Shown: in pieces, positions 5,657 to 20,500 of the stretch | Numbering within the stretch: position 1 is the stretch's first letter | Layout: every line of letters starts with the position of its first letter | Source of the DNA: a virus | DNA: 47,661 nucleotides | Strand: one strand, 5' to 3' | IMG/VR virus record: IMGVR_UViG_3300042691_018045 | Span: 1-47,661 of that record | The notes under the pieces: generated by a model | The model's database searches: none | What the model saw: the letters and a program-made list of their open reading frames with translations, nothing else | What the model was told of the DNA's origin: nothing | Translations under genes and position numbers: made by a program

Positions 5657-6685
5657 TCACTGGTAAACATCATTCCCGCCGCAGTTTTTGATGCTCTGCG
5701 GCACAGGAAGCGCGTACCTTGCGACAAGGTTGTTTGTAGCGCAACCACTTATGCCGTAAATCGCCAAACTGTTTGGGTGGATGTAGTCACGCAGAAGGAA
5801 CCGATTGTTTGTCACTGTGATCGTGCCAACGCCTGAGACGCCTTGCCACCATCCTGTAAACGTGTTGTCTTCAATGATCGCCGAACTTCCATCCGCGACC
5901 CAGATCGCGATGTTCTTGCCGCTCTCATCTGCGTTATCAAACCAATTTTGACGCATCGCAGCGCCGGTTGAGTTTGAGCTCAAGATGACCCCAACCCCTT
6001 CGCCGTTGGCAGGCTTGATGGCGTCTTTCTGGACCACGATATTTTTGATTGTGTTCCCAGACAGCGTGCAGTTCGTGCCGCAGCCATTGAATGCGACCGC
6101 ATATCCATTGCGGCCATCGTCTCCAACATAGCCAGATATTCCATTAATAACGTTCCTGGTCAGCAAAACGTTTATCGAATAGCCAGTGTTTGCGCCGATG
6201 TACGTGTTCCCGGAAAAATCAACCCTGTCAACAAACAGGTTTTCTGAATAAGCTGCTTGGAGGCCGAAGAAACAGCCCGTTATCTTGCCTGTGCTGACGG
6301 GAACAGATGGATCAGCCCCGAAAATTCTTACATTCCGAATTGACGACGCCATCACGCCAAATGTTGTGGCGTTGGTGGACGGAGGCGGATAAACCGGCCT
6401 GCATGCAACTGTTTTGTTGTTCAAGTTCAGCGTCACGTCGTTTGCGATGATGTTGATGCAGATTCCACTCCAGTAGCAAGTGCAGCTATCCAATAGCGTG
6501 TAGTAACCAGGTGACGAGATTGTTTGCCCGCAAACCACAGTGTTTGCTGATGCGTGGCCCGAGAACCCGAATAAAAGCGCTGCTAAAAATACCAGTTTGC
6601 GCGGGAAAGAAAGCCCACAAAGCCATAAAAATGCTCGTTCCTGAGTTGTACCGCGCTTAAACAGTAGTGTGCGAGGATCAGCCAT
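5657..6685 (-). CDS. exported parallel beta-helix protein, candidate lysogenic-conversion gene
   Basis: 342 residues. The ATG at 6685 has a strong GCGGAGG Shine-Dalgarno and overlaps the integrase stop. After a long polar N-region, residues about 31-46 (KLVFLAALLFGFSGHASA) form a signal peptide with a likely cut before NTVVCG. The mature part is made of repeated beta turns with Asn ladders (DVTLNLNNKTV, NVLLTRNVING, CTLSGNTIKNI, SAIIEDNTFTGW), as in right-handed parallel beta-helix proteins related to NosD and pectate lyases, and it has several Cys. Export and an enzymatic or carbohydrate-binding surface role are inferences. It lies just past attP, so after integration it sits at the prophage edge, apart from int. 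Confidence 0.7.
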   Translation of the reverse strand: MADPRTLLFKRGTTQERAFLWLCGLSFPRKLVFLAALLFGFSGHASANTVVCGQTISSPGYYTLLDSCTCYWSGICINIIANDVTLNLNNKTVACRPVYPPPSTNATTFGVMASSIRNVRIFGADPSVPVSTGKITGCFFGLQAAYSENLFVDRVDFSGNTYIGANTGYSINVLLTRNVINGISGYVGDDGRNGYAVAFNGCGTNCTLSGNTIKNIVVQKDAIKPANGEGVGVILSSNSTGAAMRQNWFDNADESGKNIAIWVADGSSAIIEDNTFTGWWQGVSGVGTITVTNNRFLLRDYIHPNSLAIYGISGCATNNLVARYALPVPQSIKNCGGNDVYQ

Positions 6686-17556: not shown

Positions 17557-17595
17557 ACTTTAAGCGAGCTAAATAAAAAAGTAAAGCGCGCTAAA
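17557..17595 (-). promoter_or_regulatory. left operator/promoter region (PL/OL-like)
   Basis: Two near-palindromes, TTAAGCGAGCTAAA at 17560-17573 and TAAAGCGCGCTAAA at 17582-17595, match the operator copies at 20253-20316. On the minus strand a -35 candidate TTTACT (580-585) and a -10 candidate TAAAGT (557-562), 17 bases apart, overlap the two operators, so a bound repressor would block the promoter of the leftward operon. The same -10 hexamer is used in front of cro. Promoter positions are inference from spacing. Confidence 0.68.
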
Positions 17596-18027: not shown

Positions 18028-18414
18028 TTGCTCGATGTAGATTTCGTCATTGCGATCCATGACGAAATTATTGCGGAGTTTGGCGGCTTGGCGGGCTTCG
18101 CTGGCAGCGGAAGAGGGGGCGTTGAATCCGCCCTTATGCGAGTCAGCAACCATATTGAATATGATGGGCTCAATGACGCCCTTGGCATTGCGGCGCTTTA
18201 CGCAGAAGCCATTGCCAAGGGGCATGTTTTCACTGATGGGAACAAGCGTACAGGGCTGACTTGCGCTCTGTCTTACTTGGCACAGCAAAACCTGCATGTG
18301 AGAAAAGACCCGATTCTTGAGGAGGCCACCGTATGGCTTGCGGAAGGCTCTTGGAACTCAGAAGCGTTTGCTTGGTTGCTTGGCCACCTCGCGGGAATTA
18401 ACGCAGATTCTTAG
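18028..18414 (+). CDS. doc: Doc-family (Fic fold) toxin
   Basis: 128 residues from a TTG start directly after the antitoxin stop. The Fic/Doc active-site motif is intact: HVFTDGNKRTGL at about residue 69, with the catalytic His, the Asp, and the Asn-Lys-Arg anion-binding residues. The N-terminus, LDVDFVIAIHDEI, and GIAALYAEAIAKGH are typical of death-on-curing proteins. P1 Doc phosphorylates EF-Tu and halts translation; the same target is likely here but not shown. In a prophage the pair would stabilise the lysogen or act in abortive infection. It converges with the minus-strand gene ending at 18434. Confidence 0.9.
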   Translation: MLDVDFVIAIHDEIIAEFGGLAGFAGSGRGGVESALMRVSNHIEYDGLNDALGIAALYAEAIAKGHVFTDGNKRTGLTCALSYLAQQNLHVRKDPILEEATVWLAEGSWNSEAFAWLLGHLAGINADS

Positions 18415-18433: not shown

Positions 18434-18658
18434 TCACTCATCATCACTCCCCGGCTCTCTCTCAAAAGCCGCACACCCATGCTCCGGCATGCTGCGCACC
18501 CTACTGCACTTCGGATTGTTGCAATGCGCAACCTGAGTGCCAAAGCCGCAGTCAACTAGGCGATCCAGCCAGCGGCAGTGCTTGCAGGGCTTTGACGGCC
18601 ACTCCTGCATGACGAAGTTGCCAGATAAGTTCTCACCTTGAGCGGGATGCTTGTTCAT
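18434..18658 (-). CDS. small Cys-rich phage protein (AFEREPG type)
   Basis: 74 residues. CKHCRWL and HCNNPKC supply a probable zinc site; the end, CAAFEREPGSDDE, is a pattern I recall from short phage proteins. It overlaps the exported protein gene by 26 bases and is last in the repressor transcript. Function unknown. Confidence 0.62.
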   Translation of the reverse strand: MNKHPAQGENLSGNFVMQEWPSKPCKHCRWLDRLVDCGFGTQVAHCNNPKCSRVRSMPEHGCAAFEREPGSDDE

Positions 18659-19556
18659 AGACCTGTCCAGTGGTCTTGTTGATGACTGAAATTTGATCTA
18701 GCCGCCCAAAAATTGCTGATCCATTTGTTGTTGTATCAAATGGAATTTCTCTGGTTGGAGTCTCACGTTCCTTAAACTTAAATATATAAGGTTGCTCAAG
18801 TGAAATAACATACATACATGTTATTTGCTTATCGTTTTCTCTTGCTTCTGCCGGTGGCATTTTGGCTGAAAGCAATAGATAATTAAAAACATAGCGATAT
18901 GGCAATCGAATTGATGTTGCACTATTACCTGATACTAAAACTGATGCTGGCTCATTGTAAGTTCCGGCTGGAAATGCGATAACGTATTCGTCAGATATTG
19001 TTCTTGAGACTTCTGTATTTGCGCCGTACGCATTCTGTGCTGTGTATTTGTCTTGTTGCAAGTTTGCTCGCGCCAAAGTCACCCTACGCAAATTTAGTGC
19101 TTCTGGATTTGGCGATTTGAGCGAATAATCTTTTATTGATGACAGCAAAACTTTTACCTCAAAAGCTTGACGATCAGCATCGTATTTTTTTTGACAAGAG
19201 CCAATTATTGGGATTGGCTGTATTGCCTTCATCTTTTCTGTAAGCGCAGCTTCGTACTGCTGTCTCTCTTCCGTAGTTGAGAACTGATCAGGCTTTCCTG
19301 GTACGCTCGACACTTGAGCCTCAATCCAAGCATAGACCTTCTGTGGATCGTTTGATAGGTATGTTATTGTGGATTCGCTTTGGTCGAAATATCTTGGAGC
19401 AAATGGCGCTGGTGGCAATTCTGCTGGTGCTGAATTGGATTCTTCTAAAACTTTTGGCGCAGGTGATTTGTTTTGATTCTTTAATGGTGGTTTTTGGGCT
19501 TCTACACTAGTTACCATAAAGAAAGTCAGCGCAGTAACGATTGTGATTTTTATCAA
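18633..19556 (-). CDS. exported protein of unknown function in the repressor operon
   Basis: 307 residues from a TTG start at 19556 that overlaps the repressor stop (TTGA) and has GGGGAAG just upstream; the frame open to 19628 only shadows the repressor. Residues 1-20 (IKITIVTALTFFMVTSVEA) are a signal peptide. The mature protein starts with a Pro/Lys/Asn-rich linker (QKPPLKNQNKSPAPK), then a domain with FAPRYFDQSESTI, GSCQKKYDADR and CMYVISLEQPYIFKFKE; two Cys could form a disulfide. No family recognised. The DNA is visibly richer in A and T than its neighbours, suggesting acquisition. Co-transcription with the repressor would express it in the lysogen. Superinfection exclusion or another envelope change is the leading guess. 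Confidence 0.72.
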   Translation of the reverse strand: MIKITIVTALTFFMVTSVEAQKPPLKNQNKSPAPKVLEESNSAPAELPPAPFAPRYFDQSESTITYLSNDPQKVYAWIEAQVSSVPGKPDQFSTTEERQQYEAALTEKMKAIQPIPIIGSCQKKYDADRQAFEVKVLLSSIKDYSLKSPNPEALNLRRVTLARANLQQDKYTAQNAYGANTEVSRTISDEYVIAFPAGTYNEPASVLVSGNSATSIRLPYRYVFNYLLLSAKMPPAEARENDKQITCMYVISLEQPYIFKFKERETPTREIPFDTTTNGSAIFGRLDQISVINKTTGQVYEQASRSR

Positions 19557-20242
19557 AAGTCTTCCCCTTTCCAAATTTTCAACACACGCCCAAACAATTG
19601 GAAGTCCATGTCTTCGGTGATCGTCCAATCTCGATAGGACTTGTTTTCCGATAGCGCCATCAGCCCTTGCCCAGGTATGCGCTGCAATCGTTTAATGAAC
19701 CCCTCGTCGCCGACGCGGAAAAAATAAATGGCGTCGTACTCAACCACGGACACCCCGCGATCAACTAACAACGGGTCGCCTGGGTTGTAAAGCGGTCTCA
19801 TTGAGTCGCCAAATCCGGTAACGATGCAGAGATTGCTGGTCGAGCTAGCGCTGCGCACATTCTTTTGCACCCATTCCGGATTGACTTTCCAACTGTGAAT
19901 TACGCCCGGTTGGTCTCGGAGGATTAGGCCTCGTCCCATACTTCCATGCGTCTCGTACTGCGGGATGGTCAAGGCGTCGAGTTCAATATGTGGTTCGGTG
20001 TTCGCAATTGTTACGCCATCTGGCGACCACTGCGGCCCCTTGTTGCACGAAATCCACAAAGCATTCAAACCACTCACTGCGGCGAGTCTTGTGGCTGGCT
20101 CTATGTCTAGTGTCTTTGTGTCGCCCTTGAACCATTGAGTGACAGATGACGCACTGACGCCTGCCGTATCGGCAAGACGCGCCTTGTTCTTGATCCTGGC
20201 CGTCTCCATTACGAGATTGAGCCTGTCGCTTAGCTTTTCCAT
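19553..20242 (-). CDS. CI-like repressor with HTH and S24 peptidase domains
   Basis: 229 residues. An N-terminal XRE-type HTH (residues about 5-62; KARLADTAGVSASSVTQWFKG is the recognition region) is followed by a linker and a LexA/CI S24 domain with catalytic Ser in GFGDSMRPLY and Lys in GFIKRLQRI. The usual Ala-Gly or Cys-Gly cleavage site is not obvious, so self-cleavage is uncertain. GGAG lies five bases before the ATG. It would bind the 14-bp operators at both early promoters to keep lysogeny. It is divergent from cro across a 66-bp operator region. Confidence 0.93.
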   Translation of the reverse strand: MEKLSDRLNLVMETARIKNKARLADTAGVSASSVTQWFKGDTKTLDIEPATRLAAVSGLNALWISCNKGPQWSPDGVTIANTEPHIELDALTIPQYETHGSMGRGLILRDQPGVIHSWKVNPEWVQKNVRSASSTSNLCIVTGFGDSMRPLYNPGDPLLVDRGVSVVEYDAIYFFRVGDEGFIKRLQRIPGQGLMALSENKSYRDWTITEDMDFQLFGRVLKIWKGEDF

Positions 20243-20252
20243 GTGCTCCGAT

Positions 20253-20316
20253 TAAAGCAGGCTCAATAAACACTTGCGCCAAGAAAATAAAGCGTGCTAA
20301 AGTAAGGCATGCTTAA
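20253..20316. promoter_or_regulatory. right operator/promoter region (PR/PRM-like, three operators)
   Basis: Three related 14-bp sites: TAAAGCAGGCTCAA (253-266), TAAAGCGTGCTAAA (288-301) and TAAGGCATGCTTAA (303-316). The first lies just upstream of the repressor start. The third covers the cro ATG at 20309. A rightward promoter with TTGCGC (274-279) and TAAAGT (298-303), 18 bases apart, would start transcription at about 20309-20311, so the cro message may be leaderless. The repressor promoter on the other strand could not be fixed. Confidence 0.7.
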
Positions 20317-20500
20317 AAAAGACGCTCTAAAACTCCTTGGTGGCACTGTCACATCGGCTGCAAAGCTCATTGGCATCAGTGTTTCGGCTGTGTCTCAGTG
20401 GCCTGATGAATTGCCTGATGCGATCTCAGACCGCGTTCTTGCAGCACTTGCAAGACAGCACCTTCCTCCCGAGCTTCTTACACCTGAAGAGGCCAAGTGA
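20309..20500 (+). CDS. Cro-like repressor
   Basis: 63 residues. KLLGGTVTSAAKLIGISVSAVSQW is the HTH of Cro proteins, followed by LPDAISDRVLAALARQHL. The small size and the place directly right of the operator region, divergent from the S24 repressor, match lambda cro. The predicted transcription start nearly coincides with its ATG, and no correctly spaced Shine-Dalgarno is present. It would turn off the repressor promoter and moderate early transcription. Confidence 0.85.
   Translation: MLKKDALKLLGGTVTSAAKLIGISVSAVSQWPDELPDAISDRVLAALARQHLPPELLTPEEAK

Follow-up and report, generated by a model that had tools for sequence, protein, structure and literature searches.

The position directly behind the cI repressor gene is already known for phage-defence genes in enteric prophages. 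In lambda, rexAB lies directly beside cI and is transcribed with it from PRM (PMC11077077). The bstA gene of Salmonella prophage BTP1, like its relatives, is directly downstream of the repressor, is presumed to share its promoter and occurs sporadically in Gram-negative prophages (PMC8585504). Ltp of S. thermophilus phage TP-J34 is a superinfection-exclusion lipoprotein that is made in the lysogen and consists of an anchor, a spacer and an active domain; its gene belongs to the lysogeny module and lies past the cI-type gene, in the order int-ltp-orf3-cI-type gene (PMC3952083). That paper also cites a Gram-negative case, in which the exclusion protein of the prophage, Glo of Vibrio phage K139, is soluble and located in the periplasm.

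We analyzed a 47,661-nt stretch of DNA (the window), a virus record with genes for a tyrosine integrase, terminase, P22-type coat and tail tube. Like bstA, its gene for a predicted exported protein lies directly behind a prophage repressor and is sporadic. BstA acts on phage DNA inside the cell, whereas the exported protein has a predicted signal peptide and, on the basis of Pfam and NCBIfam searches, no family match. The rexAB pair encodes a sensor, the soluble, DNA-binding RexA, together with the inner-membrane protein RexB; here there is a single predicted exported protein, with no sequence match to either. Ltp is likewise exported and encoded in the lysogeny module, export being a prediction in our case, but it is a lipoprotein of a Gram-positive host, whereas the protein described here has no lipobox (VEA precedes Q at the predicted cleavage site), no Cys before residue 121 and no sequence match to Ltp. 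The likeness to Glo, a soluble periplasmic protein according to the citing paper, is one of description alone, with a signal peptide predicted by rule on our side; that to the phage family PHROG 13753 is a partial sequence match only.

We propose, with a probability of roughly one half, that the gene is a moron occupying the cI-distal slot in an immunity region of lambda type, that it is expressed in the lysogen and that its periplasmic product acts on the host envelope. This kind of prophage cargo is already known; the wider interest lies in an exported bias of the slot, described below.

Immunity region

Table 1. Features of the immunity region and its surroundings (window coordinates)
Feature	Position	Strand	Evidence
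Putative Doc antitoxin, 68 aa	17821..18027	(+)	Position directly before doc
Doc toxin gene, convergent, outside CI operon	18028..18414	(+)	Pfam Fic 7.7e-12; phrog_577 Doc-like 6e-26
Candidate third CI-operon gene, 74-aa Cys-rich ORF	18434..18658	(-)	ORF only; weak
Exported protein gene, 307 aa, TTG start	18633..19556	(-)	ORF and translation; full-length relatives; conserved Cys121/Cys247; lowest GC
Predicted type I signal peptide MIKITIVTALTFFMVTSVEA	19497..19556	(-)	-3/-1 Ala-type site, without lipobox; scored SP by script
CI-type repressor, HTH and S24 peptidase domain	19553..20242	(-)	Pfam Peptidase_S24 6e-16; phrog_4 1e-39
Cro-type repressor, divergent from CI	20309..20500	(+)	Pfam P22_Cro 2.7e-07; relatives adjoin related CI genes
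Putative OR: three TTAAGCNNGCTTAA-like palindromes at 20253, 20288 and 20303	20253..20316		Palindrome search
Putative OL: palindromes at 17560 and 17582, ahead of leftward early operon	17560..17595		Palindrome search

The palindrome TTAAGCNNGCTTAA was noticed between cI and cro, and the whole window was searched for it with at most two mismatches. The search gave five matches over the 47.7 kb, confined to two clusters, where 1.48 would be expected by chance; the caveat is that these same sites had supplied the pattern. Chance palindromes would have no reason to land at these two spots, and the clusters are likely to be OR and OL (Table 1). The exported gene would then lie directly behind cI, on the same strand and between the two operators, which is the position of lambda rexAB and bstA; placed so, it should be made in the lysogen. 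The first-pass annotation had proposed co-transcription with the repressor. The overlap of the two genes and the position between two operator-like clusters support this, and the argument for lysogen expression is stronger than that annotation could make it. A search for a promoter belonging to the exported gene gave matches at chance level only, and no RNA structure was seen at its junction with cI (z -0.44).

The same annotation had pointed to the adjoining Doc module. The module does adjoin the gene; it is convergent on the other strand, however, and does not point to a function. The 68-aa ORF upstream of doc matches no Pfam, PHROG or NCBIfam profile and possibly represents an antitoxin family not yet recognised. 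At the other side of doc, the ATG of the 74-aa ORF overlaps the end of the exported gene and the ORF could be a third gene on the CI transcript; it has no Pfam match, no relatives that we could find and no hydrophobic segment by eye. Elsewhere in the window, a beta-helix gene (tailspike- or depolymerase-like; 5657-6685, minus strand) adjoins the integrase gene, distant from the tail genes.

Exported-protein gene

The frame is taken to be real because its homologues, at 39-45% identity, are full-length. According to the ORF coordinates, the TTG (19556-19554) overlaps the CI stop codon TGA (19555-19553). The sequence upstream of it, GGAAAGGGGAAGACTTTTGATAAAA, has a purine-rich Shine-Dalgarno sequence 7-8 nt 5' of the TTG, which bears out the start and the separate ribosome-binding site that had been annotated on first pass. 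The ribosome-binding site and the signal peptide were assigned by rule and by eye. In the N-terminus, MIKITIVTALTFFMVTSVEA followed by Q, a short, positively charged n-region leads into a hydrophobic core and an AxA-like site. The predicted mature part, approximately residues 21-307, begins with a linker (residues 21-51) abundant in Pro, Lys, Gln and Asn, and the ~255 residues that follow hold the only two cysteines of the protein, Cys121 and Cys247. Signal peptide, Pro/Lys linker and two cysteines were thus found in the sequence as first described, the signal peptide by rule. An A+T content above that of the neighbours had also been suspected: with a GC content of 0.406 (GC3 0.31) in a window of 0.544, the gene is the most A+T-rich, lowest-GC 924-nt stretch of the whole window.

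The signal peptide, together with the lack of an evident transmembrane segment in the mature part, places the protein outside the cytoplasm. This weighs on a reading suggested by the shared position of rexAB and bstA, in which the protein would take part in the lysis-lysogeny decision or in abortive infection, as proposed for RexA/RexB, by sensing the envelope damage done by an incoming phage and feeding back on the prophage. We consider such a role improbable: the predicted location is against it, there is no RexB-like partner, and neither BstA nor RexA is exported.

The family had been called unrecognised, and so it appears. Pfam and NCBIfam are silent, and no homologue of known function was found in Pfam, NCBIfam, PHROG, viral contigs, GTDB contigs, phage records or plasmids. 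The first-pass annotation had recommended profile searches and structure prediction followed by Foldseek. The profile searches returned one weak and partial match, to PHROG 13753 of unknown function (E=1.1e-6; residues 159-305 against model positions 128-257 of 263), which three relatives match as well (E 9.4e-6 to 0.05). This names nothing, since the profile carries no function. In structure prediction, two AlphaFold runs, on two sequences only, gave a pLDDT of 40 and of 51, too weak to use, and no Foldseek match was credible. The Foldseek matches to haemolysins, SSB and spike proteins were discarded as meaningless (TM by query length <0.2), and flagellar FliF-like matches (G058 and G174; E 0.002-0.006) were discarded as chance.

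Relatives of the exported protein

No close relative emerged when viral contigs, GTDB contigs and phage records were searched with the single sequence, and the same search of plasmids gave only a weak Caballeronia match, later confirmed as distant by HMM. Relatives were then sought in 401 genomes related to a Hydrogenophaga genome (G002), where three full-length relatives with 39-45% identity were found (G155, G395 and G187). Cys121 and Cys247 are invariant in these three, and a QNAYGA motif is common to all. More distant relatives were found by profile in G473, G722, the Caballeronia plasmid, G1054 (near a transposase-like gene) and G102, where the domain is fused to TonB_C. Among INPHARED phages, no further family members were found.

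The relative in G155 (also viral contig L150) has 42% identity. It starts 70 bp behind a CI-like repressor with HTH and S24 domains that is only 26% identical to the CI of the window over 117 columns, and the prophage around it is of a tailed phage and includes terminase and tape measure genes. The G473 ORF begins 59 bp past an HTH_3 regulator; the prophage there is Mu-like and carries Mu portal and lysozyme genes. The G155 case, an independent relative that follows an unrelated CI repressor in the corresponding slot, extends the original reading of the locus. The other two close relatives have no adjoining phage genes: that of G395 is ~600 bp from a tRNA-Ser and that of G187 is beside a PemK toxin gene. 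Because these and the Caballeronia plasmid copy are outside recognisable phages, the function need not depend on a repressor. A distant relative fused to TonB_C (L146:463-1578, minus strand) adjoins another small lipoprotein gene.

Within three genera, the gene is present in 1/29, 1/5 and 2/17 genomes; of the two copies in the third genus, one is a fragment of 35 residues. This remnant (L164; G1143 C67 165593-165697) is in a sister genome of G395 and indicates decay or recombination there. At all loci measured, the gene exceeds its surroundings in AT by at least 10 points, except for the Caballeronia copy (1.5 points). Sporadic and AT-richer than its surroundings, the family has the pattern of a mobile accessory gene. 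Foreign composition and the remnant in the sister genome would also suit a captured passenger with no current function in this prophage. That is a long shot in our view: the 307-codon frame is intact, the cysteines and motifs are conserved across relatives only ~40% identical, and the family recurs in the same slot.

Proposed role

In the lysogen, the exported gene would be transcribed with cI from the maintenance promoter and its product exported by Sec. Once in the periplasm, the protein would fold into a soluble form, probably with a single disulfide, Cys121-Cys247, and may modify or guard the host envelope while the prophage stays repressed. Its single most likely job would be to hinder the entry of other phages at a periplasmic or outer-membrane step. 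Relatives at the same spot in unrelated viruses make it probable that the protein alters the host envelope, perhaps shutting out competitors. Superinfection exclusion is the leading hypothesis for its function, by analogy with described systems, although we hold it at somewhat less than even odds.

The main rival to exclusion is host envelope homeostasis, and our data do not separate the two. Prophages also carry cargo of this other kind: lambda Bor is described as benefiting the host cell. Lysogenic conversion apart from phage entry would make the protein a periplasmic aid to the host in envelope stress, outer-membrane homeostasis or niche survival, with the cI promoter a mere constitutive lysogen promoter. 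Relatives on chromosomes and a plasmid, with no repressor beside them, are consistent with this, as is the relative fused to TonB_C, but the members with a readable phage context lie behind repressors or regulators. Overall we regard a purely host-directed benefit as rather unlikely.

Genes behind cI in related prophages

We also surveyed the slot itself. An alignment of related CI repressors gave 44 genome loci and 80 viral loci, with gene families elsewhere in the same loci as controls. A home-made rule for signal peptides and lipoboxes decided which products count as exported, with slot genes and control genes treated alike. One Achromobacter cluster of seven loci, with a large membrane protein that is probably a host gene at the prophage edge, was counted once.

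The gene directly behind cI varies between loci. With families treated as independent and shared locus ancestry controlled by clustering alone, 31 of 60 slot families were exported compared to 104 of 874 control families (odds ratio 7.9, p 1e-12), and lipoproteins made up 13/60 and 19/874, respectively. To exclude spurious ORFs, the count was repeated on those families alone that have a diverged relative at a second locus; the exported fractions were then 14/20 and 14/147 (odds ratio 22, p 1e-8). The start codon of exported slot genes was at most 40 nt from the cI stop in 32 of 37 cases. Non-exported cargo also occurs in the slot. GC content of the exported slot genes is ~4 points under that of the locus and not under that of their own cI; as evidence, composition is therefore weak for the slot in general and strong for the gene described here.

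Most exported slot proteins have no known domain. Matches with domains include RcsF (one) and YbjQ (two). Directly behind one CI repressor is a BamE-domain lipoprotein (L123:5717-6169), a component of outer-membrane assembly in a prophage-borne copy. The BamE domain and the RcsF match both belong to host outer-membrane functions and so add to the case for a benefit to the host, but such mimics are equally compatible with remodelling of phage receptors.

It is possible, if on balance doubtful, that Burkholderiales prophages keep an interchangeable cassette behind cI specialised for envelope-acting proteins, filled with secreted proteins, lipoproteins and copied versions of the host lipoproteins for outer-membrane assembly or stress; the exported gene would be one allele, and the cassette a large untapped set of entry-blocking or receptor-remodelling proteins. 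What the survey establishes is a strong enrichment of the cI-distal position of Burkholderiales prophages for exported proteins of many unrelated, mostly unannotated families. If these block entry or remodel receptors, a simple rule, a gene behind cI with a signal peptide, would find new superinfection-exclusion proteins. With its independent relative in a second phage, the exported gene offers a clean test case. Small lipoproteins recur behind CI, in L063, L070, L041 and L132 and in L072 and L135.
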